A stretch of 64,000 nucleotides of DNA from Bryopsis sp. KO-2023 (Eukaryota; Chlorophyta; Ulvophyceae; Bryopsidales; Bryopsidaceae): assembly GCA_030272585.1 (NCBI GenBank), contig BSYQ01000008.1, forward strand, positions 5,146,001 through 5,210,000, given 5' to 3'. Of the stretch, positions 29,984 to 59,493 are shown piece after piece. The notes below the pieces were generated by a model. That model did no database searches, had not been told where the DNA came from, and saw nothing but the letters and a program-made list of their open reading frames with translations. Position 1 is the first letter of the stretch; each line of letters begins with the position of its first letter. A program made the translations under genes and the position numbers.

Positions 29984-30393
29984 TGATACGAATGTGGACT
30001 CTGGAACGAGTACACATTCACCTAAGTCGATCCAGTCGGACTGGATCAGCCTGGTCCGGTAATCAGTGCCTGGTTCGGTACCAGAGCCGGTCCAGCAGTA
30101 CAGTCCGACTGACCCAAGTGAGAGGTGGACACGGTGGCAGTTACCGTGTCCACACAATCCAACCAACGGTCCTGAGAAGGATTTGGTCTGGATCTGTCGG
30201 TCCAGTGGACGCTGGGTCCGACAGCTCTCAACCGTTCCTTTTGCCAGGTTGTCGGTCCGGCCCCATATTTATTGGATCCGGACCGAGGTAACAATGTTCT
30301 AGAGTAAGCTTGTAAGCAAAGACTCTTATCCGTGTTTCCGTGGTTCTAGACGTAACGTCTACCACTACTCGATACTTTCCCGTGTTTTTATCA
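29984..30393 (+). repeat. I2 5' LTR
   Basis: 410 bp from TGATACGAATG to GTGTTTTTATCA, equal to 38771-39180 apart from one visible change. Confidence 0.95.
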
Positions 30394-30395
30394 AC

Positions 30396-30407
30396 TGGTT
30401 TCGGAGC
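30396..30407 (+). promoter_or_regulatory. I2 primer-binding site
   Basis: TGGTTTCGGAGC, two bases after the 5' LTR. It is the same 12-mer as in I1, E and O. Confidence 0.85.
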
Positions 30408-30448
30408 GAGTTCCCGGACTCGCGAACCGCATCACCAAGGAGATCTAT

Positions 30449-30874
30449 ATGTACCCTTCGACACCTTCGAACCTGACCGACGCATCCACTGGCTCGGAGT
30501 TCCAAGTGCCAGTGTCCGCAGCACCTACCGTTCCCGCTCCAGCTACCGTCGCGCATTGGAACGCGTTTCAGGTGGACTACCCAACAAGTTATCGTGGCAC
30601 ACCTCTGACTTTTGTTTCCGGACCCAGCTTGGCCGACATACCTGTACCGCGTGGACCGCGAGACGAAGATTTGGAGAGCGTGGGATCCTGTGACTCCGTG
30701 TTCACGGAGGAACAGAGGAACGACCCCGATTTCCAGGCCTTGTATCTGGAGGTACTCGAGGGTCAACGAGCCAGAGCTGCAGCCAGAGAGACCGCTAGGC
30801 GCCAGGCATGGACCTTATCCCGTACGAGGAAGCCCCAGCCTATCCCGACCATGTGGACGAGGGAGACGAGATGA
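30449..30874 (+). CDS. I2 leader ORF ahead of gag
   Basis: 141 residues, rich in Pro, Ser, Thr and later Arg and Glu ([20 protein letters not shown]). It overlaps the start of gag by 67 bp, and gag is in the -1 frame relative to it. It may be the true N-terminus of Gag, joined by frameshifting, or a separate small protein. No domain is recognised. Confidence 0.6.
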   Translation: MYPSTPSNLTDASTGSEFQVPVSAAPTVPAPATVAHWNAFQVDYPTSYRGTPLTFVSGPSLADIPVPRGPRDEDLESVGSCDSVFTEEQRNDPDFQALYLEVLEGQRARAAARETARRQAWTLSRTRKPQPIPTMWTRETR

Positions 30875-32988: not shown

Positions 32989-35900
32989 AGGTCCGAGGCG
33001 CAGGACCACCAGCCTTGGACCAGGAAACGGGTGGTGATGAGGCCAGCGATCCGGGAGATCAAGGGCAAAGGGAAAAAAGAGTACGCTGGAAAGACCAGCC
33101 GGAAGAACCGAAACACAGCTCCAGTCCGCAAGACAGTCCCCAAGATACAGCAGATGTGCGGACCGGGTCACCAGGGACGGGACCCTTGAGAGGAGCCACC
33201 GACGGTCAAGGGCAAGAACAGCCCGTGGGGCCATCGGACCACTCGGAGCGTGATGCATCACTTGAACCAGGGAAAGGTCAAGGAGCTACCGAGGTGGATG
33301 GGGAAGTGCTAGGGCAGGCACTTAGTCGGACCGGTTCTGCGACGGCCGACAATTTTTCTTTTTTAGCTAAGACCGGCGGGGCCGGCAAGAATAGTCGTTT
33401 TACGGGGTTTGAAATAAGGGTTTTTATTAATGACGTGCCAGTAGTGGCTTATGTCGATTCGGGCAGTTGGGAAAATTACCTTTCGAAGGAAGTAGTGGAG
33501 AAAGTGGGTGTAAAGGTTTTCCCCGAACAACGGACTTTGGTTATGGCAGATGGTTCCAGGAAACAGGTTACAGGACGAGCGGACCGGTTACAGTTCCGGT
33601 CCGGATCAGTTAATTTTGTGTCCGATTTCCACTTGTTCCCTGGAATGGCATATGAAATGATATTGGGAATTCCATGGTTGGTTGCCGAAAACCCCGATTT
33701 GTGTTTTCGCACTCGGACCATTAAGGTTCGTCGGGGCCGGAGCCAACTATCATTACCATTAGCTATTTCAACTCAGCCAAAGCCAACTGAAGTCATGAGT
33801 ATTGGGGGATTGGAACCGACATCCGCCACCAACGTTTGGCGAGGGATACGGTCCAACGATTGTGGAGCTTTGATGGTGGTAGTTACGGAAGTGGAGCCAG
33901 AAGACGGACATCAGAAGGACGATGTGGAGCGACTGATTCGGGAGGACACCTCTCGAAAGATTTCGAACCTACTGGAGAGCTATCGGAGAGTATTTGCCTC
34001 GGATCTACCCAAGGGACCACCACCGGTCCGAAACGGGCACGAATTCGAGATCAAAGTTGAGGAGGGGACGAAGCCAATCTTTCGTCCCATGTATAAACTA
34101 TCTCCGGCGGAGCTTCAGGAGGTCCGTAAACAGCTGGACTACATGTTGGACCGGGAGTTGATCCGGCCCTCCAAGAGTCCATGGGGCGCACCGGTCCTCT
34201 TCGCTAACAAGAAGGACGGTGGCCTTCGCTTTTGCATCGACTACCGCTGGCTCAACCAGAGGACCATCAAGAACCGCTATCCACTACCGCTACCCGAGGA
34301 GCTATTGGACCGACTACAGGGAGCTAAGGTGTTTAGCCGGTTGGACCTGCGATCCGGCTACTGGCAGATGCCGATCCGGCCTGAGGACCAGGAGAAGACA
34401 GCGTTCCGGACCCGGTACGGACACTACGAGTACAAGGTGGTGCCATTTGGGCTCACAAACGCCCCTCCGCAGTTTATGGCTATGATAAACGACCTGTTCC
34501 GGGATTTCCATGACCGGTTCATGGTCGTGTTCCTCGATGACATCATAGTCTACAGCAAGAACGAGGAGGAGCATGCGGAGCACCTACGCTTGGTATTGGA
34601 CAAGCTAGCTGAGCACAACCTGTACGCGAAGGCATCGAAGTGTTCTATCGCCGTGAAGGAGTTGGATTTTGTGGGCCATTGGATCTCGGCGAATGGAATC
34701 TCGCCGCATCGGTCCAAGGTCCAGGCGATCCGGGATTGGGAGCCGCTGACCTCTGTTCCTGAGGTCCGAAGTTTTCTGGGGATGGTTTCGTATTACCGAC
34801 GCTTCATTCGACAGTTTTCGAAGGTAGCAGCGCCGATCCAGAAGCTTGTGAAGAAGGACCAGCCATGGGAATGGGGAGCCGAGCAGAAGGCAGCTTTTGA
34901 AGCCCTGAAGGAAAGTCTGACGACGGCTCCGGTCCTGCTGATACCGGATCCGGACAAGCCATATGTAGTTGTCACGGATGCTTCGGATTTTGCGCTGGGA
35001 GCCACATTGATGCAGGAGGCTGACGATGGACTTCAACCGGTGGCGTTCCTCAGTAGGTCCCTCAACTCGGCCGAACAGAAGTACTCGGCCTATGAAAGGG
35101 AGCTTTTGGGCATTTCCTATGCCTTGGCTCAATGGCGCCATTATCTCGAAGGAGCGCCGAAAGGGACCACTGTCTACACGGACCACCAACCCGCTACACA
35201 TTTCCTCCAGCAACGGGTCCTGTCTCGGACCCAAACCCGCTGGTTGAAGGCGGGGTATTTTCAGTCTATTATGCCGAAGATCGTCTACCTCCCGGGCCGA
35301 TCCAATGTGGTGGCTGATGCATTGTCACGCAAGCCTCAGCTCAAGTTGAATGCAATTTTGGAGGCCAAAATTTCGCCCGGGGAGGCGCAGGAATGGACGC
35401 AAGCGACCACTGATGACCCTACTTTGAAGCGTATTCTGGACCAACTGGACCAAGGACGACATGTACCCGGGTATTCTCGGACCGAACCGGGAATGCTTTT
35501 ATATCAAACCGCACCAGGAGTGGACCCAAAACTAGTGGTCCCTACCACAAAACGACAAGTGGTGTTGCACGATCACCACGATGTTCCGATGGCGGGACAT
35601 CCAGGAGTGGCCAGGACGGCCGAGCTCGTGAGCCGAAGATATTGGTGGCGCGGTTGGAGACGAACCGTGACCGACTATGTCCGCTCGTGCCCCACATGCC
35701 AAGTGATGAAGACCGAGAACGCGAAGCCCAAAGGATTGCTGAATCCGCTTCCCGTTCCGACATATAAGTGGGAACAGCTGACAACGGACCTTGTGACCGA
35801 TTTGCCGAAATCGAATGGGTATACCGCTGTAGCTGTCTTTGTGGACCGGCTCACAAAAATGTGCAAGTTCGTGCCATGTACCAAGGAGGTATCGGCAAAG

Positions 35901-36848
35901 GAGTATGCCGAGTTGTTTCTATCTCAGGTGTTCCCTACCTCAGGGATACCCGAAGTGATCGTTTCGGATCGCGATCCACGGTTCACGAGCCAGTTCTACA
36001 AGGAACTGTTCAGGCTCGTAGGAACGGATCTGCGGATGTCGACTGCTCACCATCCACAGTCGGATGGCCAGAGTGAAGTAACGATCCGGACCCTGGAGAA
36101 CTTCCTTCGGCCCTATATTGAGGCCAGGCCGGAGAAGTGGAGCGACTACCTGAGCACGGCAGAATTTGCAGCGAATAACTCGATCAACGCCAGTACCAAG
36201 TACACGCCGTTCTATCTTATGTACGGCCAGCACCCGAAGGGATTGGAGTTGGACCGGCCCAAGAGCAATGTTGAGGCCGCAGAAGCCATGGTGGACCGAA
36301 TGCGGGACGATTTGATGGACGCGAAGAAGAACTACCACGCCGCCCAGGAGCAAATGTGCCAAGTAGCCAACAAGAAAAGGAGGCACGTGGAGTTCCAAGT
36401 GGGCCAAGAAGTGTGCCTACGAAGTGCACATCTTCCTTTGGCCGTGACCAAGCATGTTCCAGCTAAGGTCCGAAGACGGTTCATCGGGCCATTCAAGGTG
36501 ACCAAAGTGATATCACCGGTGGCCTACCGCATTGATCTACCAGAAACATGGCGACTACATCCAACCTTCCACGTCTCCAAACTCAAGGAGTATATACGTT
36601 CCGAGGAATTCAAGAGGGACGATCCTCCAGGACCGGCTCTGGTGGACGAACTAACTGGAGCCGAGGAATTCGAAGTGGAGACGGTTCTACGATCCAAGGG
36701 AGCTGGAAAAAGAAAGAGGTACCTGGTACTATGGAAGGGTTATCCGACCCATGAGGCCACATGGGAACCGGTTGCACATCTGGAACACTGTGCAGAATTG
36801 TTAGCTGAGTTCGAAAGGAAAAACTCAGCCAAACATGGCCATAACTGA
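32913..36848 (+). CDS. I2 pol polyprotein (PR-RT-RH-IN-chromodomain)
   Basis: 1,311 residues in the -1 frame relative to gag, hence probably made by -1 frameshifting in the 32913-32988 overlap. The protease has [12 protein letters not shown], where the residue after Ser-Gly is Ser instead of the usual Ala. RT has FCIDYRWLN and catalytic VFLDDIIVY. RNase H has [11 protein letters not shown] and YTDHQPATH. Integrase has an HHCC finger with CPTCQ, then [16 protein letters not shown] and [12 protein letters not shown]. The C-terminus has a chromodomain ([18 protein letters not shown]). All catalytic residues are present. Confidence 0.95.
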
Positions 36849-37159
36849 GACCGGATCGCATTGGAGCCAGCGATGGGGGAGTTGGATCCAAATGGAGACG
36901 GACCGAGAATGATCCAACCCCGGCTGGTATGGGACAGCTTTAACGGGGAAACATCATCTCAGTCCTGAGGTAACTCCCAGCTGACTACACGATCCGAGGA
37001 AGGCGTGGCTGTACGGACGTACTGGATCTGGAACCGGGAACGACGATAAAACGGAGCGCGAAGACAAGGAACCGTACACCAAGCGCACTTTGGTTTCTGT
37101 TTCCGACTCGCTACTGCAAACCCCGACAAACAACTACTGTTCCTTCGTTCTCGTTCGAA

Positions 37160-38356
37160 ATGGCTGCACCGACTCCTGTCTCCAGCGCCCTTGATGCGTT
37201 AAATGCAGCGTTCACTGAGGAGACAAAGAGGTTACAGGCCACGGTAGCGGCACAAAAAGAAAGGATTCAGCAGCTTGAGAATGAACTAGCCGCTACAAAG
37301 GAGGCACTGGCGAACGCTAGGAAGGAAGCAGAAGGGGACGCGCGAAAATGGGGACGGAACCGTGAGGCGGAAATGGTCACAGGGATAGAGAAGGCAATAG
37401 GAGTTCTGGAAGGAACGTTGAAACAGCTGAGCGTCGCAGACGCAGAGGGAATTGATCAGATGCGCGGAAGGGAAACGGATCGAGCCAAAGAGGCAGAAGG
37501 GGGACAGTCAGAGCAACCATCTGACGAAGAAATGGATGAGCCCCCGAAGTGGAAAACCACCAGACGTCGTAACAAGGTGTTGCGTCGAAGCTCCTTCATA
37601 CTGGACGAAGCTACGGAGGTGGATCTGAGTGAGGGGGATATCGGAAGTGAGGAAGGTGCCGTCGAAGAAATGGTGGATACAGATCAAGAGGAGTGGGACT
37701 CTCTTTACGGGACTGAAAGTAAGATGGACGTGAACCCCCCTTCGCGACCACCCACTACCGAGCCCGAGCCTGCCATCGTTCCACCTGGTCTCGCACCGTC
37801 TCCCAGTATCCCGACGTCACCAACAGCACCGAGCGTCGTAGCCCCCTTCAGTTGCATTGCGTGTGGGGTTACGCGAACGGTCCCACGCCAAACGGACCAG
37901 GTCCTATGCCCCCGCAATCACCTCGTGTGCCGGACCCACCACGCGGGATATCGCATCGCCGTGCGAGCCGCTAAGTTCTACGAGCAGGGCCTCACCCCGA
38001 CAACGGCGCAACTGCTAGCCAATTCGGCAGACCCGGTCCAGGGCGCGGTTGAACTCGTGCCGCAATGGGGTAACCCGTTCCCGAGTTGCCCCATGTGTCA
38101 AAAAGACGTTCTCCCGCTCTGGACCGGGAAAAGCAAAAAGCAGTTGCGAGATTGGAACGCGGCTTACCTCAAGGCCGTTGGGGTGGATCCCGTTGGAAAT
38201 CGACAGGCGAGAGGAACTTCACAGGGAGCGGTATCAGCGGAGCAAACGCAGGAACGGACCCAGGAGCAGCGTGGAGAGCACTCAGGAGGATCTTCGCAGC
38301 AAACGCAGGCGATCCAAGGTCCCAGAACGCGACTTCGCAGTCGTGGCCAGAAATGA
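37160..38356 (+). CDS. I2 third ORF: coiled coil plus RING-like zinc protein
   Basis: 398 residues between pol and the 3' LTR, the position env has in retroviruses. It has no signal peptide or membrane segment. Residues about 15-100 form a Glu/Lys/Ala-rich coiled coil; an acidic and then a Pro-rich linker follow. Residues about 233-320 hold CIAC, 14 residues, then CPRNHLVCRTHH, and later CPMC. This cysteine/histidine spacing resembles a cross-brace RING or related zinc fold. Element E has the same design at 49310-51079. Function is unknown; a role in targeting, assembly or ubiquitin-like chemistry is only inference. Confidence 0.85.
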   Translation: MAAPTPVSSALDALNAAFTEETKRLQATVAAQKERIQQLENELAATKEALANARKEAEGDARKWGRNREAEMVTGIEKAIGVLEGTLKQLSVADAEGIDQMRGRETDRAKEAEGGQSEQPSDEEMDEPPKWKTTRRRNKVLRRSSFILDEATEVDLSEGDIGSEEGAVEEMVDTDQEEWDSLYGTESKMDVNPPSRPPTTEPEPAIVPPGLAPSPSIPTSPTAPSVVAPFSCIACGVTRTVPRQTDQVLCPRNHLVCRTHHAGYRIAVRAAKFYEQGLTPTTAQLLANSADPVQGAVELVPQWGNPFPSCPMCQKDVLPLWTGKSKKQLRDWNAAYLKAVGVDPVGNRQARGTSQGAVSAEQTQERTQEQRGEHSGGSSQQTQAIQGPRTRLRSRGQK

Positions 38357-38770
38357 GTTACAACAGGTCTAACCTGTTGGGACCAGTGGAGTGATTGGTG
38401 TGTTTGTTTTCTTTTGGGTTATTTGGGTGTTCAGAATCAAACATTTGAGTGGATCCAGGCTGGGATCCAGAGGTTACCTTACTTTTCTTTCTAAGGTAAC
38501 AGGGAACTATATCGATTTTGCAGACATTATTGGATCCAGGGGTTTCTTTTGTTTTGATTATTGGATCCAGGGGTTTTGTTTGGTTGTTGGATCTCAAGGT
38601 AACACTGGTCAAGGGGACCAGTGTCGGATGGACCGATAAGAACCTTGTTTGTTTTTGAACACAGACATTTTTGGCATGTAAACAGGTTCGGGGTGACTTG
38701 GGTTGTGTAAACTGATCTCCTCTCATATACGTGGTGCTCGGGACGCGCACTTGATGGGGGGGGGAGTGGT

Positions 38771-39180
38771 TGATACGAATGTGGACTCTGGAACGAGTAC
38801 ACATTCACCTAAGTCGATCCAGTCGGACTGGATCAGCCTGGTCCGGTAATCAGTGCCTGGTTCGGTACCAGAGCCGGTCCAGCAGTACAGTCCGACTGAC
38901 CCAAGTGAGAGGTGGACACGGTGGCAGTTACCGTGTCCACACAATCCAACCAACGGTCCTGAGAAGGATTTGGTCTGGATCTGTCGGTCCAGTGGACGCT
39001 GAGTCCGACAGCTCTCAACCGTTCCTTTTGCCAGGTTGTCGGTCCGGCCCCATATTTATTGGATCCGGACCGAGGTAACAATGTTCTAGAGTAAGCTTGT
39101 AAGCAAAGACTCTTATCCGTGTTTCCGTGGTTCTAGACGTAACGTCTACCACTACTCGATACTTTCCCGTGTTTTTATCA
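38771..39180 (+). repeat. I2 3' LTR
   Basis: 410 bp, the partner of 29984-30393. It is preceded by a G-rich polypurine tract and followed by ATCCT. Confidence 0.95.
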
Positions 39181-39287
39181 ATCCTTGTCTTGAGAACCAT
39201 TCTGACGACTTCCTGACGACATTTCCGACATCACATTTGCATGTCCAGGTTTCTTTGACGCCCCTCCTGGCCTGGTCCAGGGAGGCC

Positions 39288-40853
39288 CTACTCGTTTCCC
39301 GACGACTTGTTTTGGCCACCCTTCTTCTTCGATCGACATTCTCTCGCGAAATGCCCGAACTTTCCGCAGTTATGACATTTCCCTTTCTTGGGTGACGACT
39401 GGTTCCACTTCTCTCCTGACACTGCGCCAATCTCCATCTTATCGTCATACTGCCGGTTTTGTTTTGGGTACCAAGGAGTCTGGTCGTTTCCTGCTCGGCC
39501 TGCAGCCCGATCTGCTTGCAGTGCCAACTGGACGGCTTCATCAAATGTGTGGGGACGGTTTAGGAAAACGTGGGATTTTATCTTCGCCTGTAGAGAGTGC
39601 GTGAAGAGATGCACCTTGTCCTCGGTGCTCATAGTGGGAGTCTTCAGCAGGAGTTTGGCAAACAAAGCGATATGCTCCCTGAGCGTTCCTTTCTTGTGTG
39701 ATAACCGGAACAGTTGGTCTCTGGCGGTTTCTGCTTTGTCGAAGGGGTCGAAATATTCGATAATCTCCTGCCCCAGAGTCTCCCAGCTCGCCAACACGTC
39801 CGGGTTGGACGCTTTCTTAACAGTAAACCATTCCTGCGCAGCTCCTCTCAACACCGTCGACGCCAGTAACGCCCTTTTGTTCACAGGACATCCAGACGCC
39901 ACAAAATAAGTTTCCATACTCTCCACCCAGTCGGATGCTCCTTCTCCCGTTTTCCCAAAGAACTGAGGAGGATTCCCCAGCCGGATAGGCGCAAAGTTCC
40001 ACACATCCGGTATAGATGGCCCTGCAGAACCTCCACTCGTCACTCCACTCGTCGCTCTCACTTGTCGGAACTTTTGCTCCAGTTCGTGTTTTGCTGCCAG
40101 TAACGATGCTTGGAGGTCGCTCTTCTGGGTTGCCATTTGCTCTTGCAGTTCCAGTAGTTTTTTATGCATGCTTGACCCAGCCTCCAAGTTAATGCCCACA
40201 GCCGACTGCGCCGTCGACTGCTGCTCGGTTAGTTCCGTCATAGTAGCCACCAGGGTAGAGATCTTTGCATCCGTATCCGTCCGAAACTCCATCGCCTGGG
40301 TTTCCCGTAGGGTCTGGCTCAACGTTAGTTCGTCCAGCTTCTGCATTAGTTTCTGGTGGTTCGCTTGGCTGTCGAGGGTCACTTTCGACAGTTTCTGCTC
40401 CAGTTTCGTGCCCGCCTGTCGAACTTTCAGCATGTCTGCTCGGACGTCACCCGCCGATTTCTCCAGCAGTTCCAGTTTCCCGGTCGTCTCGACATGTCTG
40501 GTTTCGTTCGTAGTTCCAAGCTCAGCAACTTTCTCCTTTACAGTTTTGACTTTATCCTGTAGCCCGGCCCCAGCTTCATCAAGCTTGCCGACTGCCTTCG
40601 ACAGTTTCTGTAAGGACTCTCCATGCTTATGCGCGAGCTTTTCAACTGCCAAGCCTGCCTTGTGAACCTTTGCGAACTCGTCGCCATGCTTATTCACCAG
40701 CTTCTCCACGTTCTGTCCTGCTTTGTGGATGTTTGCGATTTCTGTCTTTATCTCCAACCCTTCGAGTTCCCCGATTCGGTCTTCCAGTGCTTTGCACCCC
40801 GTCTTGAGTGCCGCCACCGCCTCCAACAGGTTATTAACGTCCTCCGCCGACAT
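39288..40853 (-). CDS. I1 gag (coiled coil, capsid, zinc knuckle)
   Basis: Structural protein of the virus-like particle, 521 residues. The first 260 or so are a long heptad-rich coiled coil with repeats such as KAGQNVEKLVNKHG and KAGLAVEKLAHKHG. A Ty3-type capsid domain follows (ASDWVESMETYFVASG, AAQEWF, LFRLSHKKGTLREHIALF). It ends with one CCHC knuckle, CHNCGKFGHFAREC, and a Lys-rich tail. The ATG lies about 80 bp after the primer-binding site, so the leader is very short. Confidence 0.9.
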   Translation of the reverse strand: MSAEDVNNLLEAVAALKTGCKALEDRIGELEGLEIKTEIANIHKAGQNVEKLVNKHGDEFAKVHKAGLAVEKLAHKHGESLQKLSKAVGKLDEAGAGLQDKVKTVKEKVAELGTTNETRHVETTGKLELLEKSAGDVRADMLKVRQAGTKLEQKLSKVTLDSQANHQKLMQKLDELTLSQTLRETQAMEFRTDTDAKISTLVATMTELTEQQSTAQSAVGINLEAGSSMHKKLLELQEQMATQKSDLQASLLAAKHELEQKFRQVRATSGVTSGGSAGPSIPDVWNFAPIRLGNPPQFFGKTGEGASDWVESMETYFVASGCPVNKRALLASTVLRGAAQEWFTVKKASNPDVLASWETLGQEIIEYFDPFDKAETARDQLFRLSHKKGTLREHIALFAKLLLKTPTMSTEDKVHLFTHSLQAKIKSHVFLNRPHTFDEAVQLALQADRAAGRAGNDQTPWYPKQNRQYDDKMEIGAVSGEKWNQSSPKKGKCHNCGKFGHFARECRSKKKGGQNKSSGNE

Positions 40854-40933
40854 TCTGGTTCTTCCCCCGGTCTCTCACGATGAACCCAATATCACAGGCT
40901 GCCCGATCGTTTGGGTGTAGCCCTGTACACTTC

Positions 40934-40945
40934 GCTCCGAAACCA
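40934..40945 (-). promoter_or_regulatory. I1 primer-binding site
   Basis: On the minus strand it reads TGGTTTCGGAGC, two bases after the 5' LTR. It is the complement of a tRNA 3' end of the form GCUCCGAAACCA. Confidence 0.85.
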
Positions 40946-40947
40946 CT

Positions 40948-41266
40948 TGTAAGACACGGGAGTGGTATAAGACAATGGAACTTTACAAAGAACACCGAGT
41001 CCACCACCACACTACTCTTGTAGTGCGGACCGGTCAAAGACAGTTACGGTTGCGGCGGAGGTTCGAATCCTCCCCGGAACCACTTCTCACTCATTCACAC
41101 ATTGTCACACAATTGTCCCTTAGTCCGGTCAGTCACCCAACTAACCGTCAGCAACCAACACTCAGCCGAGTGGTTCGGACAGAAAAAGTAAGACTCGCGA
41201 TCCGGAGATCACGAGTTCGATTCCCACTAAGCCCACACTTCCACTTCCACTAAGAAAACTGTCACA
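40948..41266 (-). repeat. I1 5' LTR with tRNA-like segments
   Basis: 319 bp, same content as 24908-25226. It is followed by CGAGG and the rest of the O LTR. Confidence 0.9.
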
Positions 41267-41271
41267 CGAGG

Positions 41272-41427
41272 TTTGGTGGTGTGAGTCAGTGAGTGGAGGT
41301 CAAGTTTTTTTACAACGTTGTTCTGTCAAGTCAAAATCGGTCTCCCAAAATACACAGTTCCAGTAAATATACCCACATCCGGGTTCTCCTAGTCGGTCAT
41401 ACACCTAAGTCTCCCAGTCCGACTACA
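41272..41427 (-). repeat. O 3' LTR, second part
   Basis: These 156 bp equal 59563-59718 with one visible change. Together with 24882-24907 they make 182 bp, the length of the intact O LTR. Confidence 0.9.
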
Positions 41428-42152
41428 ATCCCCTCCACATCACGGCTGAAAACACCCGTCAAGCACGTGATGTATCTACCCGGACGTCTCAACTCAAACA
41501 CAGTAATCAATCATTGTTCCAACTGTCAAATGTCAAATCAACTTAACCCTTTCTACTATCCCAGGTTCACTCTCTCCACCGAGTACTAGAAATCACGAGT
41601 TCTCACAAATAACACTCCTGGTTCACTCAAAATCATAGTTACTTAGTCCACCTGAGATCGATTCCCCTTGTCAGCAAATTATACAGCCATAAGACCATGG
41701 CTCAGTCTAAACTCAGTCAGCAACAATAAACACAACAGCCAAGAGACTAATACTCCACCAATCAGAAGTAAAGCCCAGGCTGATCCACATCAAAACAATA
41801 GATACTCCCCTCCAAACTGACCATCTGGGGAGTCCTCCACAAAATTCAAAAATAAAGAATGTCAATTTCCCCCTTTCCAGAACAGAACTTCATTTCCTTT
41901 TTCTTTCTTGTGATTTAGAATCGAAATCCAAAATCAAATTTCCATCAATCTCTTTTCGGACAATCGAATCTTACCCTGCAGTAAGCGCCAGCCTGACGGT
42001 AGTTCTCAACACTCTCTCCCGTAACCGCCCCCTCACTTAGCAACAAACTGTGGATTACTCTCGATCTCGATTTCCGCCCGATTTCGATCGATCATCACCA
42101 TTTCATTGCATTAGCCGCCGAAGGTCAGCTTCCTCCTTCGTAGGCTGGATAC

Positions 42153-43107
42153 AGAGCTGGGCAGTAACCCGTTTGTAACGCACCGTACCGTAACGCACAG
42201 GGTCGGTATAGTAACGTGTCCGGTCGGTGCACGCACCGACCGGACGTTACAACACGTTGCACACGTTACAACAACGACCCAATCGGTACAACAACGTCCA
42301 AGTCCGGTACAACAACGATCCGACGTTACTGTAACGCCAAAGCGTTGTTGTAACGCAGTACGTTATCAGTAACGTCTACACCGGCTGCTATAACATCCGC
42401 ACCGAGGCAAGACGTTACAACAACGATCGGTTGCGTTACGTGTAACGATAACACGTTACAACAACGGCCAGGTCGGTACAACAACGTAATGACGTTGCAG
42501 TAACGTCATGTGGATGACGTACAAAGTGACCCCCGCAGGGTCCCCAGAACCCAAGGGAACCGAGTGGGATTCGAACACCGTACCGCACGGTGCCGAATCA
42601 TCTACACTGAGCGCTAAGCCAAGTGGACCACGATGATTTTGTGGCTGTTGCGATCATATACCTTAATCTGTTTGTAATTCTGTGAAATTAGGGTATATTA
42701 TTGCAACAACCACAAAATCATCGTGGTCCACTTGGCTTAGCGCTCAGTGTAGATGATTCGGCACCGTGCGGTACGGTGTTCGAATCCCACTCGGTTCCCT
42801 TGGGTTCTGGGGACCCTGCGGGGGTCACTTTGTACGTCATCCACATGACGTTACTGCAACGTCATTACGTTGTTGTACCGAACGTCGTACTGTCTGTGTC
42901 GGTACAACAACGTCAGTGACACGTTGCAACAACGACCCGATGTTGGGTGCCGGTCGTTGGCGATAACGTATCGTACCGACCCAGTACCGATGTTGTACCG
43001 TACCGTAAAAAACATTCGTACCGTACCGTACCGTACCGACCCCTTACGGTACGGTACGTAACGTGTCGTACCGTACCGTAGGGGGTCGTTACGGTACTGC
43101 CCAGCTC
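42153..43107. mobile_element. Foldback element MITE-2 with mirrored tRNA-like units
   Basis: The terminal inverted repeats read AGAGCTGGGCAGTA at the left and its complement at the right. The direct repeat TGGATAC flanks both sides. Dense subterminal arrays of the type CGTTACAACAACG and GTACCGTACC lead to a central inverted repeat (about 42520-42637 against 42700-42840). Each arm contains a tRNA-like unit with A-box-like TGGCTTAGCGC and B-box-like GTGTTCGAATCCC. No ORF is present. It interrupts the last codons of the O pol gene. hAT-like termini (CAG...GGGCA) suggest a non-autonomous DNA transposon. Confidence 0.8.
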
Positions 43108-43109
43108 TG

Positions 43110-43886
43110 GATACCAACGAGTTGATGGTATGCCAAAACTGTTTCTGCTGCGTTCGTCAAATGAATCCATGGCTCCCAGGAATCATGTTCCGACCCAAAA
43201 CCCTTCCAGCGAACCAAGTATCGTCGTTTCACAGATCTCCCACGACGAGTCTCCCTGTGATCGAGGATTCTCTCCACCTCGTATTCGAGTTGCCCCTCGT
43301 TGGTCACTGGCGCTGGCGGCTCTGGATTCGGCCTCACGAAATCCTCCGATTCTTTGTATCGACGCATCCTGACGACATGAAAGACGTCATGGATGTTCCA
43401 CGTTTCCGGCAACTCCAATCTGTAGGCAACTTTCCCCAGTCGAGCAAGAACCTTGAATGGTCCTACAAACTTTGGACCCAATTTCGGCGAGATTCCACTT
43501 CCAGCGAACGACAGATTCTGAGTCGATAGCAAAACCCTATCGCCGATCTTAAACTCCTCTTCTCGCCGAGACTTGTCCGCGTATCTCTTCTGCCTTTCCT
43601 GAGCTTGCTTCAACAACATCTTCGCGGAATCCAAGTCTTTCTTCATATTTCCCAAGATGTCATCGACGCCTCTGATCTCACTTTCGATTTCGCGCTTACC
43701 GATTAGCGCCAGCGGAATCAATGGATGCTCTCCTGTGTTAAGATAGAACGGCGATTGACCCGTCGAGCTGTGCTTGCCGTTATTGTATGCAAACTCCGCC
43801 GCCGGAAGCCTCTCGTCCCAATCGCGACGCCTGGCATCAACATAGCATCGTAGGGTTTCCTCCAGAACGCGATTCATGCGTTCCGT
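43110..43886 (-). pseudogene. O pol: integrase C-terminus and chromodomain
   Basis: It begins at the MITE-1 border with the last integrase motif (TDGQTERMNRVLEE). The GPF/Y-like KFVGPFKVLARLG region and a chromodomain (RYLVRWKGFGSEHDSWEP) follow. The natural C-terminus is cut by MITE-2. Beyond MITE-2 the same frame runs about a dozen codons more to a TGA near 42,103. Confidence 0.85.
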
Positions 43887-43894
43887 TTGTCCGT

Positions 43895-44611
43895 CAGTCA
43901 TGGGCTGCATAGGACAGACCCCTGTCCTGTGCATCGCACAGGACAGGGTTCTGTGCGGGTTCTGTGCACCCTGTGTTGTCCTGTCCTGTTTTTCGAAATT
44001 CCACAGGCTAGAACAGAACAGACTGTCTGTTCTGTCCACAGGTCGGACCTGTGCTGCACAGGTGCACAGTGTTAGACTTGGGGGTGCAAGTCTAAGAAGA
44101 GCTAAAAACTAGAACTTATGAGTCCATGACCTTGAAGCCCATTAATACCATGACCCCCAAGGATCCTAGCGTCCCCGCATGGTACCTAGGACAACCATCC
44201 TAGGTGGGCACCCGACATAAGTCTAGTCATCATGACTAGACCTGACTCACATGTCCACGTCAGCATGACTACGCATGACTGTACATGACTGTACATGATT
44301 GGACCTGACTGGATGTAGCTCTTAACATCCCTAACACACAGACTGCACAGCACAGCACAGAAACTGCACAGAATCTGCACAGAATCTGCACAGAATCTGC
44401 ATAGAATCTGCACAGAGTCTGCACAGAATCTGCACAGAGTCTGCACAGAAACTGCACAGACTGTGCACAGACTTGCACAGACTGTGCACAGACCCTGTCT
44501 GTGCTGTGCTGTACAGGTCTGTGCACCTGTGCAGCACAGGTCCGACCCTGTGCACAGAACAGACAGTCTGTTCTGTCCTGTCCTGTGCACAGGGGTCTCA
44601 GCCCATGTCTG
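43895..44611. mobile_element. hAT-like foldback element MITE-1
   Basis: The 717-bp element has 13-bp ends CAGTCATGGGCTG and CAGACATGGGCTG (inverted) and perfect 8-bp TSDs TTGTCCGT (43887-43894, 44612-44619), as expected for hAT. The inverted arms extend inward for well over 100 bp (ACAGAACAGACTGTCTGTTC type). The centre holds an array of about ten 11-bp CTGCACAGAAT units (44350-44480). It codes for nothing recognisable and splits the O integrase. Confidence 0.9.
44350..44480. repeat. 11-bp minisatellite inside MITE-1
   Basis: About ten head-to-tail units of CTGCACAGAAT with small changes (GAGT, GAAA, CATA). Apparent Cys-rich reading frames here are a product of the repeat. Confidence 0.85.
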
Positions 44612-45301
44612 TTGTCCGTCCGTTTGCGGATGAACCGCAGAGCTTAGCTTCAACTCTGTTCCACTCAGCTCCATCAATCGACGCCAGAATGCAGACACGA
44701 ACCTGCTATCACGGTCGGATACCAAATTCGAGGGCATCCCGTGATGTCGCCAAACCTCCCTGAAGAATATTTCCGCCAAATCCTTTGCAGTCGCGGTCGT
44801 CACAGTCGGCACAAAGTGCGACATCTTACTCAAACGGTCGACGAAAACAACAATCGCCGTATTGCCCTTCTCGGTTTCCGGCAACTGCACGATTAGATAT
44901 AAGCTGACGGATTCCCAGCGACGATTTGGAATCGGCATCGGCTGTAATTTCCCAGCCGGAACTTTCGCCTCCGATTTTGCTTTCTGACACTTCGGACAGG
45001 TTCTGCAATATTCGTTCATATCTTTGTCCATTTTCTTCCAAAAATAGTATCGTTTGATGAGATCAAGAGTTCCATCTCTGCCCTTATGACCGGATACATC
45101 AGAATCATGAGCTTCTTGCAGTACCTTCTGTCTGATTGATGTAGGGATCACAATCTGTCCAGATTTCTTTCTGATCAATTTTCCATCCATTTTGAATTCC
45201 TTGCAGACATTTGGATCTGATTCCTTCAACAGTTTCCTTATGTTGCCACAGTATGCATCTTTTCCTTGTGCCTTTTCCAGTTTCTCTGGTGTAATTGTTT
45301 T
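44612..45301 (-). pseudogene. O pol: integrase N-terminal and core part
   Basis: HHCC finger (AHDSDVSGHKG and YCRTCPKCQ) and integrase core with SDRDSRF and HPQTDGQ. The first catalytic Asp of the DDE triad is Tyr (SVSLYLIV, codon 44899-44897; I1 has Asp in the same motif). It is separated from the RT part by an in-frame TAG (45304-45302) and cut by MITE-1. Confidence 0.88.
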
Positions 45302-47428
45302 CTATTGAACTTGGCTCCTTGTTAGAGCATTTGCAGTTTCAGTTTTAGCTCCTCCTTTTTCCATACTCTGTCTCCTCTCTCCTCCCAGGCTGTCAACGTC
45401 ATTTACCAGCCTTGTGCCCAGTGGTCTGTAACTCTCAGGAGCTCCATCAGAGTCATCTCCTGAAGACCACCTGTTTGGATCCTTTTCTTTGGGCATTTCA
45501 TTTTTGATTTCAGGTTCCATAAGACCACTTTCCCCAGTAGTCTGAAATCTCACATCCTTTTTCTTTTGATGTGACTTAACATCTGGAGTAGCATCCCCTT
45601 GCTCCCCTCCAGTCTGCAGTTTCTTGGAAACCTTGGAGAGTTCCTGTGATTCCCTGTCCTTCATAACATTGGAATCATTGTTTGGCAGTCTTTTATTTGT
45701 CGTTTCATTCAATCCTGTGATTCCACATTCCAAATTCGCATGTTGCATTGATTCCGCCTTTGCATTCCATGCGTCGTCGTGATTCTCAGCTTCCGATTTC
45801 CTCATCGATGCATGGCTGGTCGATTCCTTTTTGATTTTGTGAGCTGACGACCCCTGATCCCCTCCTGGACCCAATCCATTACTCCGATTTGGTTGGGGAC
45901 ATCGACTGAGGGCGTCAGCCACCACATTATCTTTGCCTTTGATGTGGATAGTATCGAAATCAAATGGCGCTAGGAACTGAGTCCATCGCACCTGTCGTCG
46001 AGTTAATCCCTTCTGGGAATCCAACCAGACCAAACTGGCATTATCGGTTCGCAATGTAAAATGACGACCTTCCAAATATGTCCGCCATTTCTTCAGGCAA
46101 TGCACGATGGCGAGTAATTCTTGCTCATGGACGGGATGATTTGATTCGGCTTCTGTAAATTTATGCGATTCGAAAGCAATGGGATGCAATCCCGATTCAC
46201 CTCGCTGCATCAACACCCCTCCGATTCCTTCCTGCGAAGCATCAGTCGCCACCACCACCGGCAATCGATCATCAAAATGTCGCAGGACTGGGGCAGATGT
46301 CATCGCGATCTTTAATTTCTCGAACGCATCCTTCTCTCGCCGACCCCAGTACCAGGGTTTTCCAGATTTCGTGAGATTCGATAATGGGGCAGCCACCACC
46401 GAAAAATTTCTCACGAACCGCCTGTAAAACGAGCACAATCCCAAAAAGCTTCGGATGTCATGAACATTCGCTGGCTGGGGCCACGATCGAATCGCATCGA
46501 TCTTATTCGCCATTGGGTATGTGCCATCCTTCTCCATCCACGTTCCTAAGAACTCCACGCCAGACTTTCCGAATTCGCATTTGCTCGCCTTTGCGTAGAG
46601 TTTCTGCTCCTGTAACTTCTCGAGCACCAACCGAACATGCTCGGCATGCGATTCTGCATCTCGACTAAAAATCAGCACATCATCCAGGAATACTAAAACA
46701 AACCGATCAAGGTAGGGCCGCAGCGTGTCATTCATTAGGCGCATAAAGTACGCCGGCGCGTCTGTAAAACCAAACTGCATTACAAGCCATTCGAAATGGC
46801 CGTATCGAGTTCGAAATGCCGATTTTCGGACATGTGCATCCTTGATGCGCACCTGCCAGTAGCCACTCCGTAAGTCTATTTTCGTAAAGTAACGTGCGCC
46901 TTCCACCTGGTCAGCCATCTCGTCCATCCTGGGCAAGGAATATCTCGACCGCACCGTTTGTTTGTTTAGCATTCGGTAATCGATGCACATCCTCAACGAT
47001 CCATCAGATTTCGCTGCAAAGATCACCGGTGCCCCATACGGACTGTGCGACGGCCGTATCATATTGTGCGACAGCAGATAATCTAGCTGTGCGCGCACTT
47101 CCTTGAGCTCAATCGGGCTGAGTTTGTAGATCGGACGTGAGACCGGTTTGGAATCCGGCTGCTCGGTGATTTCGAAATCGTGCATGCGGCGAGGAGGTAG
47201 CTTCTTTGGTAGATCCTCGGGAAATCTCTTTGCATGTTGACGTAACACCTCCTTCAGTCCACTTAGTTCCTCTGGGATGTCATCGATCATTCCATGCAGT
47301 TTTGGGTCGACTGTAACATCACTCTCGTCATTGTCTGTCCCAGAGTTCACTTTTCCAGTTTTGTCCTTTGTCTTGTCTTTTCTTGACTCTGGTTGCGAAT
47401 CTGGTTGTGACATGACCTCCTTATTTCC
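45302..47428 (-). pseudogene. O pol: reverse transcriptase and RNase H
   Basis: RT has MCIDYRMLN and catalytic VFLDDVLIF. RNase H has ATDASQEGIGG and RTDNASLVW. A long Ser/Lys-rich spacer follows. It is in the same frame as the protease ORF, from which an in-frame TAG (47431-47429) separates it. The sequence is close to I1 pol, so O and I1 are one lineage. Confidence 0.9.
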
Positions 47429-48799
47429 CTAGGTGGCATTCAGTTCCATCCCATGTTGTGGTGTATCAGTCAGTTTTTGTTGTTGTTTCCCTTGGAAATC
47501 TCCATTCAGCAATTCCATTATTGTAATCTCCCCTTCACTCTCACAGTCCTTTCCTTCAGTTTGCAGTTCCCATTCAGGTAGCTCTGAGTTTGATTCAGTT
47601 GATGGCTTGATCCATAAAGCAAACAGTTGCTCCTCATTTGCTTTGATCAGTTTTGATAGTTGCTTGGCTGATAGGAGGTTTAATCTCCTTCCACAATTCC
47701 TGGTTTCTGGGTGGTCACCATAATGACCTTGCAGCACCAAATCTGGCTTGCCCATTCTGTTGATCGTCACTTTATGCGTAATCCAATCGATTTTTGGATT
47801 TTCGTCCGTTAGCCACGACTTTCCGAAAATCATGTCATGCATTAGCTCTTTCAGCACCAGAAATTTCCTTTTTGTTCTATACTTCCCGAATCGAACAGTT
47901 GTCATGCAGGTCCCAATCACATGGGCCTTTGAATCATCAGCCAGCGAAACTGGCTTTGCATTCTTATCCGGTCGGTACCTCAATCCCAACCGTTTCACCA
48001 AGCTTTCTGAAACGAAATCAGTCGAAGCCCCGCTGTCGACCAACACTGTAACTGCCTCGTGAGACAGCGAGCCGCGCAACCTCAACAGGGTGGATCGACT
48101 TCCCACTCCTGATGCTGTTAATTCCTCTGCGTTCGACTCCTTTTCCCCGGTCGACCCAACCACACTCCCCTCTTCGTCGGCATCCATTTGGAAATCAACA
48201 TCCGATTTTCCAGGGACTGCATTTCCGACGTCTGTGTGACAACCTTCAGCCTGACGTTCGCCAACTGAATCCTGAGACCTCATGGCGTATGAACTCGTCT
48301 CCGCCTCATTCTGCCCCCCAGGGTGGTCATCAAGCGTGGTCGGCGTCGCCGACTCTTTCTTTTCCGACATGCATGCATCCCGCATGCCGACGTCCTTGAT
48401 TTCTGGCATGACGTCCTCATCCTCCGACGCCAAACTTCCTTCACTATTTCCGTCACCAACCACCGCGTCGTCTTCCTTATTCGACGTCGAACTGTGTACC
48501 TTCTTTGCGATCTGTCTTCCCTGCCGTCGGGATACTTTCCCAACTGTCGGCGGTGATCCTGTTTTCTGGTTACACAATCTGTTTGACGCCAAACCTCGGA
48601 ACTCTTTTAGAACCTCGTTAATTCCTCCGACGAGACTTTTCTGGCTTCCCAGCAGTTCAACAATAGCATTTTCCACCGTCGATAACCGATCACGGACACT
48701 TCCGCGTTTCCTGTTACTGTGATCGTTCAAACTTTCCTTTGCTGATCCAGATCGCGCGTCACCTGACTGCGCTTTTCGTTTGTATTGTCTTGTCGTCAT
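47429..48799 (-). pseudogene. O protease ORF with N-terminal extension, gag missing
   Basis: 456 codons from MTTRQYKRK. A basic, then acidic low-complexity region with a short coiled coil leads to an aspartic protease (TVLVDSGASTDFVSE) and the spacer that in I1 lies between PR and RT. No capsid domain or zinc knuckle is present between the primer-binding site and this ORF; without E the leader is only about 80 bp. It ends in TAG. Confidence 0.8.
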
Positions 48800-48856
48800 A
48801 GTTCCTGTTCCGAGGAAAGACTTTGACGTGCTCCCTCGACCCGTTTCCTTCCCAGT

Positions 48857-48889
48857 TGATAGGGGGTACAGGACCCCGAGACACAAGCA

Positions 48890-48920
<31 letters not shown>

Positions 48921-49023
48921 TCACTGGGAAGATTAATTTTTACGGGAGGGCCCCCTGCCCTATAAACCCTGTCGTACATCCCATTGTACTACACAATCAC
49001 CCTAAACCCGAGTGCTACTATCA
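48857..49023 (-). repeat. E 3' LTR
   Basis: 167 bp from TGATAGGGGGTACAGG to GTGCTACTATCA (plus strand), with internal (CA)n and (GA)n runs. Confidence 0.93.
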
Positions 49024-49309
49024 ATTTGTCCCCCCCCCCCCACGAGAGGGTGTCCACACCCGTCACAACCCTGGAAAGAAAGAAAGAAAAAGGGCGAACG
49101 AGAAGAAAAAGAAACCCCAAACAAACCCACAACAAAAACCCCAACTAAACGTCAAACGAAACCCCAAACAAACCTATGAAAAATCCCAAACCAAACCCAT
49201 GCTCAACCCCACAGAAAAACCCCGTTCTGTCTTGAGGCTTGGTCTCTGGCTTGGACGGTAGCTTGGTCTCCGGCTTGGTCTGCTTTGCGTTGTCACTCCA
49301 GAAGCCATC

Positions 49310-51079
49310 TCAGCCGCCGGCTGGTTGTTCAGCTGGTTCGGCAGCTGGATCATCGACTGGCTCCGCCACCAAGTCGATCGGAGGCTCGTCCTCATCCACA
49401 TCCAAAGGAGGGAAATCCTCATCCAAAGGTGGAGGAAGAGGTCCCAAAGACGAGGGCTCCGAGGATGGACTCCTGCTGGACACGGAAGGACTTTTTCCTT
49501 CGTCCTGTTTTGGGTCTTGTTCTCCTTTTGTTTCTGGTTCGGGTGTTCTCTCTTTTTCCTGCTTCTCATACTCCTCCGCCCACTTTTTCACCAACGGACC
49601 CAAGCGCTTCAGGGCAAGGCCTTTCGGAAAGCCCATGTCCCTTCTCAAGCACTGATAGCACTCGGTGAGAGTCTGGGTCGTGGGTGGAGCCTGAAGGAGG
49701 GGCTGGAAGTCTGGCTCCCGCATGTCCAAACGTAGGTCCTTCAGCTGAACCTGTGGCGGGTCGATTCGCTGTTCCTGCCACACCCCGTATAAGCGCACGA
49801 GGATTATCATGAGGTTCCAGTGGGTCCGGCACACCGTGTGGTTCGTGCATGTGGTGATCACGTAGCTATCCGCCAGCGCCGGCGGCGAATAGCACCACAA
49901 ACAGATCGGTGGCTTTTCCCCACGCCTGTCCTTGAACCTCTTGGACATGTCGGTGAGCGCTTCCTCTTCCTCTCTCTCCTTCCTTTTCTTGGGCGCCGAC
50001 TTTTCGTCGGTCTTTCCCCCGGTCTGTCCCCCGGTCAGGTCGCGGATTCTCCTGGGTTGTGGCTCCGAGATCATATCGTCTGCAACGTCGGGAACTTCAA
50101 AGTGCCCCGGTGCACGATTTCTGATTCTCTCGAGCGTTTTGTCCACCTGCGTATAGTCATACCCGGCTAGCCGGTGGTTAACCGGAACGTTTCCTTTGCC
50201 GTAGTAGACAGGCTCCTCTCCGTCTCTGATCGCAGCAGCAGCTCCAGCACCCTGCTCGATGATGTCGTCCATCGTCGCCCGACAAAGGTTTTCCACATAG
50301 TCCCCAAGGCGTGCGGGAACGCTGTGGAGCAACCGGCTCATCAACCCGGACTGTGCCTCAGACGAGTACACAGCCGTTTGCCAGGCCGACCTTTCGTCTG
50401 TGGACGTCAGGTGCGGCTGCTGTTTCGTCAACTGCGATTGCAGCTTTTTCTGCGTCTGGTTCGCAGTGTCGAGTTCCTTTTGAAGCTGCCTCAGCTCCTG
50501 TTCGGCTGTTCCTCTCGCTTGTTGAGCGATTTTCAGATCGTGTTCAAGTTGGGTTACTTGATTGCATAGCCTTTGAGCTGCACCCTCGAACTTTTTCAGG
50601 TGCTTCTCTGCTTGATCCGCCCGCGCGCGTTGTGCGTCGCGTTCTGCCCGGAGTTCCAACACATCGTCTTGTAACCGTTGACACCTAGCTTGGAGAGTAG
50701 CTGGGTCGGCGTCACGGTCGAGTGTTTTTCCTGTTCTGGAACTAGGTTTTTCCGGCAGTTTTTCCGGCAACTCTGTCGGTGGGCGAATCACGATCTTGGA
50801 GGTTCCTTTCAGCAACGAAGTCTCGAAGTTCCGAAGTTTTGAAAGTACCGAAGGAGGTGGGAGAGTTTTCATGAGTTTCGCCTTAGGTGGGGTGATAAGT
50901 GGTTTGGGTTCCCCTCTGGGTGGGCAAGCGTCGGCGAGAGTTCCACTCTGCCCTTTTCCGCCTTTCTCGCCGCCACTGCCTTTTGTTTTTCCGCTGCCAC
51001 CCAGCTGTTTTCCACTCGACTCCTTTCCCTGAACCGCTTTTTCACCACTGCGCCACATGATCGGGCTGTGCTTTGGCAT
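49310..51079 (-). CDS. E third ORF: coiled coil plus RING-like zinc protein
   Basis: 589 residues between pol and the 3' LTR. A Lys/Gly/Ser-rich start is followed by a long coiled coil at about residues 130-225 (LQARCQRLQDDVLELRAERD and on). A zinc region at about residues 392-480 has CLWC, 14 residues, CTNHTVCRTHW and a distal CYQC. The C-terminus is acidic and Pro-rich. The design and the NH-x-VCRTH core match the I2 third ORF, while the rest has diverged. No membrane segment is seen. A conserved accessory protein of this lineage is likely; its role is unknown. Confidence 0.85.
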   Translation of the reverse strand: MPKHSPIMWRSGEKAVQGKESSGKQLGGSGKTKGSGGEKGGKGQSGTLADACPPRGEPKPLITPPKAKLMKTLPPPSVLSKLRNFETSLLKGTSKIVIRPPTELPEKLPEKPSSRTGKTLDRDADPATLQARCQRLQDDVLELRAERDAQRARADQAEKHLKKFEGAAQRLCNQVTQLEHDLKIAQQARGTAEQELRQLQKELDTANQTQKKLQSQLTKQQPHLTSTDERSAWQTAVYSSEAQSGLMSRLLHSVPARLGDYVENLCRATMDDIIEQGAGAAAAIRDGEEPVYYGKGNVPVNHRLAGYDYTQVDKTLERIRNRAPGHFEVPDVADDMISEPQPRRIRDLTGGQTGGKTDEKSAPKKRKEREEEEALTDMSKRFKDRRGEKPPICLWCYSPPALADSYVITTCTNHTVCRTHWNLMIILVRLYGVWQEQRIDPPQVQLKDLRLDMREPDFQPLLQAPPTTQTLTECYQCLRRDMGFPKGLALKRLGPLVKKWAEEYEKQEKERTPEPETKGEQDPKQDEGKSPSVSSRSPSSEPSSLGPLPPPLDEDFPPLDVDEDEPPIDLVAEPVDDPAAEPAEQPAGG

Positions 51080-59318: not shown

Positions 59319-59351
59319 TGATAGGGGGTACAGGACCCCGAGACACAAGCA

Positions 59352-59390
<39 letters not shown>

Positions 59391-59493
59391 TCACTGGGAA
59401 GAATAATTTTTACAGGAGGGCCCCCTGCCCTATAAACCCTGTCGTACATCCCATTGTACTACACAATCACCCTAAACCCGAGTGCTACTATCA
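59319..59493 (-). repeat. E 5' LTR
   Basis: 175 bp, the partner of 48857-49023. It has longer CA and GA runs and a few substitutions. Confidence 0.93.

Follow-up and report, generated by a model that had tools for sequence, protein, structure and literature searches.

What does a retrotransposon gain from a third gene? The question is raised by a 64,000-nucleotide stretch of the green alga Bryopsis sp. KO-2023 (contig BSYQ01000008.1, positions 5,146,001 to 5,210,000, here G000:C8:5146001-5210000 and hereafter the window), in which two long terminal repeat (LTR) retrotransposons, I2 and E, each carry an additional open reading frame (ORF3) between the chromodomain-bearing pol gene and the 3' LTR. 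Both genes had been placed there by an initial annotation, and its coordinates are exact. The two ORF3s belong to one transposon-borne accessory family, whose members begin with a coiled coil and end in a module of eight ligands in the order C2-C-H-C-H-C2, the two being joined by a charged linker of low complexity. ORF3 is the third gene in most tested lineages of one chromovirus clade; it is widespread, selectively kept and swappable, and it is also present on an unrelated DNA transposon.

The ORF3 family and its distribution

The coiled coil, the linker, the core C-x2-C-x14-C-x2/3-H-x2-C-x2-H with its NH-x-VCRTH segment and the distal C-x2-C described in the initial annotation are all present in both products. 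With all ligands counted, the spacing reads C-x2-C-x14-C-x3-H-x2-C-x2-H-x49-C-x2-C for I2, against C-x2-C-x14-C-x2-H-x2-C-x2-H-x53-C-x2-C for E. When all six frames of the window are scanned for a broadly defined zinc motif, only the ORF3s of I2 and E are recovered; if a distal C-x2-C is also demanded, the two observed cases compare with a mean of 0.003 and a maximum of 1 over 300 rounds of residue shuffling in the 155 frames that are 100 amino acids (aa) or longer. BLASTP aligns the two proteins over 34 core residues (E 6e-4), and profiles of the I2-type and E-type modules run in register over 105 columns (hhalign E 6.1e-4, at a probability of just 28%). Family searches, these in-register profiles and an alignment of 17 modules together establish the proposed homology of the two genes.

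Each of the 17 aligned modules, the most distant of them 16% identical to that of I2, fills all eight ligand positions. Ligands C1, C2, H4, C5, C7 and C8 are invariant columns; C3 is found in every module, shifted by one residue in two of them, and ligand 6 is His in 14 and Cys after x4 in the other three. C7-P-x-C8 is seen in 11 of the 17, and eight I2-type modules also have in common C-P-x-C-x-K together with one W, one G and one Y. All 30 of the 30 E loci that were fetched keep the eight ligands within one open frame. Because eight Cys/His ligands are present, we infer that the module binds zinc. No Pfam family accounts for it, whether the 17 modules or the full-length I2 and E proteins are searched. 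Among a set of 14 ORF3 proteins, heptad periodicity is significant in 13 (p<=0.023; L057 is the exception), and no transmembrane-strength segment occurs in any (maximum 19-residue Kyte-Doolittle mean <=1.42).

Searches of the organism's own 91-Mb, 28-contig genome gave 104 matches to the I2 ORF3, of which 21 are near-complete at 93-100% identity, with further subfamilies at 30-48% identity, most having open frames of at least 400 aa. With the E ORF3 as query there were 76 matches, including 47 of practically full length at 94-100% identity; a third-subfamily module gave 128 at E<=0.01, and an E-type module 145, the E ORF3 included (36% identity, E 1.7e-8). These counts are lower bounds from overlapping sets, and some genes are listed in two pieces. 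Many further ORF3-bearing elements therefore exist, the first of three checks that the initial annotation had set in advance. The zinc core was found in 14 of 14 loci fetched as ORF3 matches, the frame shifting ahead of the distal pair in L049 and stopping shortly past it in L039. Loci fetched for other families had the core in three of six (L053, L054, L057) and, in a second set, in three of eight (L059, L060, L061); the remainder of the second set comprises two deleted copies (L063, L064), one locus with an inserted E fragment only (L062) and two with no core (L065, L066).

The position of ORF3 is equally regular. After removal of 7 C-terminal second pieces from the 104 I2-type matches, 79 of 97 follow an I2-type pol end on the same strand at a distance of at most 2.5 kb (median 450 nucleotides, nt), and the other 18 include six copies linked to the DNA transposon described below. 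Full-length E ORF3s follow a pol C-terminus under the same strand and distance limits in 45 of 47 cases (median 624 nt), and the E LTR block follows about 290 nt behind ORF3 in five of six E loci tested, the window's own included, and farther in the sixth (L010). Viewed from pol, the first 96 of 150 matches were taken as I2-side pol tails, and 79 of these are followed by an ORF3 match; some tails without one have an ORF3 too diverged for the query, as seen in F59. Of 66 E pol tails, taken from 150 matches with relatives at 69-91% left out, 45 have a full-length ORF3 behind them and 16 more a partial one, within 2.5 kb.

A tree of reverse transcriptase (RT) and RNase H sequences from 17 families separates two other elements of the window, I1 and O, from the remaining 15 with support of 100/100. 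The initial annotation had I1 and O as related elements that lack the gene. Its second half stands, as no ORF of at least 150 aa lies between pol and the 3' LTR in O or in I1, where the interval is 312 nt; the relationship is only a distant one. ORF3 is present in seven of seven families of the I2-side clade and four of seven of the E-side clade, and these clades are joined at 85/82. F62 falls outside both and had no ORF3 in two copies read, both apparently disrupted by insertions. With a further lineage, F92, added, F92 falls outside on a long branch and the joining of I2 and E loses support against F62. A single acquisition followed by losses is the simplest reading of these trees. F57 is placed on the I2 side by the module tree and on the E side by the RT tree; the module tree has very long branches (F57, F60, F59, E) and is used here solely for its main split and for placing the DNA transposon copy.

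No ORF3 relatives were found in a set of 5.8 billion proteins (both ORFs, E<=1e-3) or in IMG/VR, collections presumed to be poor in algal nuclear genes, so that restriction to this genome is not implied. No host ancestor gene was recognised in the part of the module-search matches that was read.

Several E-like elements have a pol end 85-91% identical to that of E (G000:C4:2738026, C14:1786592, C12:2343926, C11:3287779, C16:1303498), with single open frames of some 1800-2300 aa around pol, perhaps a one-frame gag-pol; the two that were read (L058, L066) contain no ORF3. Next to the pol of F65, an antisense F-box/WD40 ORF (one copy read) was considered as a captured third gene and rejected, as it belongs to an intronless family with 117 matches, and it is treated as a host gene beside the insertion. 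That family is itself an unusual local expansion, lying mostly on contig C2 (L065; G000:C2, about 4.0-8.7 Mb), possibly in a special chromosome region.

Selection, exchange and a DNA transposon homologue

Ratios of nonsynonymous to synonymous change (dN/dS) were calculated by the Nei-Gojobori method from the first Met, separately for the zinc module and for the rest of ORF3. They are 0.045 and 0.107 for eight of the 21 near-complete I2 copies, 0.103 and 0.143 for 27 of 30 fetched E copies (three with premature stops were dropped), 0.117 and 0.125 for L043/46/47/48, 0.078 and 0.190 for L050/51, and 0.063 and 0.33, based on few changes, for L039/40; more distant pairs are saturated at synonymous sites. 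Over the stop-to-stop frames, non-coding parts included, values are 0.225 (I2) and 0.196 (E), and for comparison the pol end gives 0.009 in the eight I2 copies and 0.237 in the 27 E copies. Low dN/dS within families, the second of the checks set in advance, thus places ORF3 under purifying selection over both module and rest in the copies tested. The selection on the zinc fold that had been suggested is seen in the strong constraint on the ligands, but constraint extends to the rest of the protein.

Related elements also swap ORF3 as a cassette. In L039 the pol end matches the I2 protein at 100% (rounded), but the ORF3 is only 45% identical. Its DNA matches I2 at 98.7% over window positions 36666-37037, up to 123 nt before the ORF3 start, falls to about 60-75% across ORF3 and returns to 92-100% at about 38280-38400. 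L040, for which only sequence 3' of pol was read, shows the same return of 3' identity, to about 38640. In the I2 family 29 full-length pol tails were compared: a complete ORF3 of the family's own type follows 20, one without the zinc core follows eight, and a swapped one follows the last. Seven of the eight deleted copies keep the 1358-aa pol frame, and four have identical deletion limits. As these copies have apparently propagated, ORF3 action in trans is suggested. Several nucleotides overlap between the two matched parts at the deletion junctions of L063 and L064, which fits template jumping rather than spliced products; no splice evidence for ORF3 was seen in upstream sequences, which were inspected by eye only.

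Compared pairwise at the nucleotide level, E copies show a median difference of 0.010-0.015 in the pol tail and the gap; it climbs to 0.025-0.075 in the initial 1.1 kb of ORF3 and is 0.015-0.020 in the module part. Means run at 0.037-0.099 ahead of ORF3 and 0.016-0.073 within it, and do not rise at ORF3 owing to a few copies with a strongly divergent pol tail. Between L053 and L054 the similarity of the 5' flank (80%) extends to 114 nt short of the ORF3 start, where it stops next to a TATA-like site at -119/-128 that follows a short inverted repeat, ACAAGT...ACTTGT (by eye). ORF3 in these two loci could possibly have a promoter of its own.

A homologue outside the retrotransposons is the L052 gene, present in six copies. 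Its module shares 43% identity with the module of F51, a chromovirus family, and falls within the I2-side group of the module tree (100/99). In six of six copies the gene is convergent with an ORF containing a chromodomain and KDZ-like sequence, 348-359 nt away. Pieces of the transposase match CxC5 (E 2.6e-4), Chromo (4.9e-4) and KDZ (3.2e-4) in Pfam, in a consistent order but each below its curated cut-off; the CxC5-like piece lies upstream in the copy read. ORF3 is no speciality of retrotransposons: this KDZ-like DNA transposon carries a homologue. The sequence read from two L052 copies has about 10 kb in common, tandem repeats included. It also holds L081, another coiled-coil/zinc gene; of the seven places where L081 occurs, six have the L052 gene no more than 6 kb away. 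The element as a whole is thus KDZ-like, with a chromodomain in its transposase, tandem repeats and two coiled-coil/zinc accessory genes (L083, L084, L090, L081, L052).

L081 belongs with L092 and L093 to a second zinc group of similar layout, with C-x4-C at ligand 6. Against the main profile this group gives a non-significant E of 0.22, and against the E-type set 0.0033 over 28 columns. L092 (with L094) is a third gene in another chromovirus lineage with integrase domains and a chromodomain (Chromo 2.5e-10), and about 35 matches come close to it in score and frame length (one read). L093 lies in a repeat of no assigned type.

The elements of the window

I2 and E are chromoviruses (chromodomain Ty3/gypsy elements): both have the pol order protease, RT, RNase H, integrase with a C-terminal chromodomain (Chromo E 3e-13 and 5e-12 for the pair, Pfam), paired LTRs and 5-bp target site duplications (TSDs). 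Their features are collected below.

Features of the I2 and E elements, in window positions
Feature	Positions	Strand	Basis
I2 5' LTR, TGATA...TATCA, left TSD ATCCT	29984..30393	+	self-match, TSD from flanks
I2 gag, 726 aa, C-terminus CCHC-like by eye	30808..32988	+	
I2 pol: protease, RT, RNase H, integrase, chromodomain	32913..36848	+	Pfam
I2 stretch replaced as cassette in sister copy L039	37040..38280	+	
I2 ORF3, 398 aa: coiled coil, acidic linker, zinc module, basic tail	37160..38356	+	
I2 ORF3 heptad stretch, residues 16-57 (coiled coil)	37205..37330	+	p 0.003 vs within-window shuffles; weak Pfam coiled-coil matches
I2 zinc core C-x2-C-x14-C-x3-H-x2-C-x2-H	37853..37939	+	
I2 distal C-P-x-C, ligands 7 and 8	38087..38098	+	
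I2 3' LTR, right TSD ATCCT	38771..39180	+	self-match, TSD from flanks
E 3' LTR, TSD CCAGT	48857..49023	-	
E ORF3, 589 aa: long coiled coil, linker, zinc module	49310..51079	-	
E distal C-x2-C	49649..49660	-	
E zinc core C-x2-C-x14-C-x2-H-x2-C-x2-H	49820..49903	-	
E ORF3 best heptad stretch, residues 151-192	50504..50629	-	
E pol with chromodomain, 1320 aa	51700..55662	-	Pfam
E gag, 954 aa	55795..58659	-	
E 5' LTR, TSD CCAGT	59319..59493	-	self-match, flanks

The I2 LTRs are 410 nt long, within a 412-nt self-match (29983-30394 and 38770-39181) with one mismatch, and I2 pol overlaps gag in a different frame, which makes a frameshift probable. The E LTR is about 170 nt, and its 5' and 3' copies differ by two mismatches and eight gap columns. 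The I1 LTRs (319 nt, TSD CGAGG) are identical, and pieces of O at 41267-41428 and 59558-59719 flank E in a self-match. These matches can be read as a nest with E within O, I1 in the left end of O and I2 within I1. A primer-binding-like sequence, TGGTTTCGGAGC, is common to I2, I1 and E beside their 5' LTRs (30395-30419, 40923-40947 and 59294-59318), and the 3' part of O contains an inverted repeat (42473-42881) with 195-nt arms, 98% complementary, and a 19-nt spacer.

Elsewhere in the window, an ORF resembling a LINE-type RT C-terminus lies beside a dUTPase-like ORF on the opposite strand (22426-23913 and 24054-24473, by eye), and 20587-21414 resembles an RlmN-type radical-SAM exon by eye. Genome-wide there are 107 light-harvesting matches, of green Lhcb type at the three loci read, against two chitin-synthase (PF01644) exon matches. 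A fungal host, considered at first, is rejected on these grounds in favour of a green-plastid alga.

The role of ORF3 and known systems

In these chromoviruses a third gene is present and maintained, but what would serve a retrotransposon and a DNA transposon alike? ORF3 is common to class I and class II elements, and therefore its function must help both; a function useful to both kinds narrows the search to the nuclear DNA/chromatin stage. The reading favoured here, tentatively and with a little less than even confidence, sees ORF3 as a nuclear protein, soluble and oligomeric, that acts in trans at the DNA or chromatin stage, for targeting or anti-silencing. Solubility is suggested by the lack of any hydropathy peak above 1.42 in the 14 proteins. 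The coiled coil would multimerise the protein, the zinc module would provide a binding surface, and ORF3 may then dock on chromatin or on host chromatin factors. As a result, chromodomain integrases and transposases would reach permissive sites, or the element would escape silencing. A chromatin-stage accessory is favoured because both element kinds combine a recombinase chromodomain with life in host chromatin.

Several points weigh against this reading. Some families of the clade have no ORF3 (F58, F66 and F65, each judged from a single copy), and some copies have lost the zinc core, which makes ORF3 dispensable in at least some lineages or copies; the four deleted copies with the same limits may be duplicates of one insertion. 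The KDZ, CxC5 and Chromo matches of the DNA transposon all fall short of Pfam's curated thresholds. The chromodomain link between the two element kinds could be coincidence, the Ty3 elements met being mostly chromoviruses. Finally, a simple pattern detects no basic clusters of the nuclear localisation type in five of 14 members, I2 among them.

A bolder form of the chromatin-stage reading, possible but doubtful, makes ORF3 a class-crossing, swappable chromatin adaptor. A single family would pair in trans with chromodomain integrases and a KDZ transposase, cassette swaps would change the target or evade silencing, and the module would be a His-variant RING-like fold outside present profile libraries.

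A helper confined to the retroelement cycle, in particle assembly, genomic RNA export or reverse transcription, appears unlikely. The location of a charged coiled-coil gene at the 3' end of a retroelement would suit it, and there is a precedent in CERV of Cer1, a nuclear-export accessory of an LTR retrotransposon, as given in the accessible part of PMC10309623. Particle, reverse transcription and RNA export roles lose ground because the DNA transposon carries a homologue, in six of six copies, where neither particles nor genomic RNA export are expected; the suggestion in the initial annotation of a part in particle assembly meets the same objection. The E-like F58 and F66 also do without ORF3 in the single copy read of each.

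The same annotation proposed a RING-like protein, and ORF3 might accordingly be a RING-type E3 ubiquitin/SUMO ligase, its coiled coil dimerising and binding substrate and its module binding an E2, so as to degrade host factors of silencing or restriction. E3 ligases commonly combine a coiled coil with a RING. The module resembles RING fingers (zf-RING_5, Prok-RING_4, zf-C3HC4_2) in having eight Cys/His ligands of similar order and spacing, C-x2-C-x(8-20)-C-x(2-3)-H-x2-C-x2-H or -x4-C ... C-x2-C, with the frequent C7-P-x-C8. RING and treble-clef folds run from a hairpin to a helix, and a low-confidence AlphaFold2 (AF2) model of E, with a short beta hairpin and then a helix starting at ligands 5-6, would suit this topology. 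The identification is nevertheless improbable. None of the 17 modules gives a significant Pfam RING match (lowest RING E 0.051), and the top match overall is to an unrelated zinc-binding transposase family (E 0.0092, one member); full-length proteins reach only E 2.4 for zf-RING_5 (E) and E 0.88 for Prok-RING_4 (I2). Neither a relevant profile nor a solved structure matching by sequence was found in the PDB. Ligand 6 is mostly His, the RING ligand order being otherwise satisfied, and the loop between ligands 6 and 7 exceeds 48 residues, about the usual RING limit, in 10 of 17 modules. RING E2-contact residues are a hydrophobic residue after C1 and a linchpin K/R at C8+1; here the former is I/V/L in some modules only, and the latter is Q/R/A/H/T/Y/S/L/N/E. 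The AF2 models, which address the third check of the initial annotation and were built from two-sequence alignments of the window's I2 and E proteins, have mean pLDDT of only 52 and 60 and gave no useful match in fold comparison.

Also improbable, and slightly more so, is a factor of self-control or dominance that limits copy number or recognises related elements, with cassette swaps altering specificity. The L039 cassette, replaced between intact flanks, and the deletion common to four zinc-less copies fit this, as does the raised median difference between E copies over the first 1.1 kb of ORF3 at low dN/dS, such as recombination among old alleles could yield. The E-copy means do not follow the medians, there is no sign of positive selection, and selection on elements hardly maintains self-limitation. 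An Env-like protein of a cell-to-cell infectious element is highly improbable: ORF3 occupies the sense-strand interval between pol and the 3' LTR where env-like genes are found (accessible part of PMC7264820), but its charged, low-complexity, zinc-ligand composition, the absence of transmembrane-strength segments from all 14 proteins and the DNA transposon homologue speak strongly against it.

How does ORF3 compare with other accessory genes? No description of a zinc/coiled-coil third ORF in chromoviruses was found in open-access PubMed Central text, as far as this was accessible, including PMC12477816, PMC3350952, PMC2864245, PMC5408684, PMC6338049, PMC7264820, PMC12730594 and PMC10309623; subscription papers and repeat databases lay outside the scope. 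Additional genes at the 3' end of LTR retrotransposons mostly lack a function that can be assigned, and ORF3 offers hundreds of matches in one genome. Purifying selection in the copies tested, natural deletion and replacement variants and sharing with a DNA transposon make it testable how chromodomain elements choose, or survive in, chromatin.

The closest parallel in position is aORF-3S of plant LTR retrotransposons, a sense gene of unknown function between pol and the 3' LTR in most family copies (PMC7264820). ORF3 is likewise a sense-strand extra gene in this interval in most copies of its families. In its accessible text, the source describes aORF-3S as env-like or of undetermined role, with no mention of zinc, RING or coiled structure (PMC7264820). 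CERV of C. elegans Cer1 is, as predicted for ORF3, an accessory nuclear protein of an LTR retrotransposon; the likeness is one of description alone, and unlike ORF3, CERV comes from a spliced mRNA and acts in genomic RNA export, according to the part of the source available (PMC10309623). The ORF3s of bdelloid rotifers, in the accessible account, are also third ORFs of several LTR lineages that cross retroelement classes, but these are enzymes (GDSL esterase, DEDDy exonuclease) common to LTR and Penelope-like retroelements (PMC5408684). The protein described here is a zinc/coiled-coil protein without a recognised enzyme domain, common to retrotransposons and a DNA transposon. Fungal TET/JBP dioxygenases similarly move as accessory genes among unrelated transposons, with anti-silencing proposed as their role; they are known enzymes of diverse DNA transposons, and none was found in a retrotransposon, as reported in the accessible part of that study (PMC12730594). 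ORF3, by comparison, is an accessory gene common to class I and class II elements within one genome.

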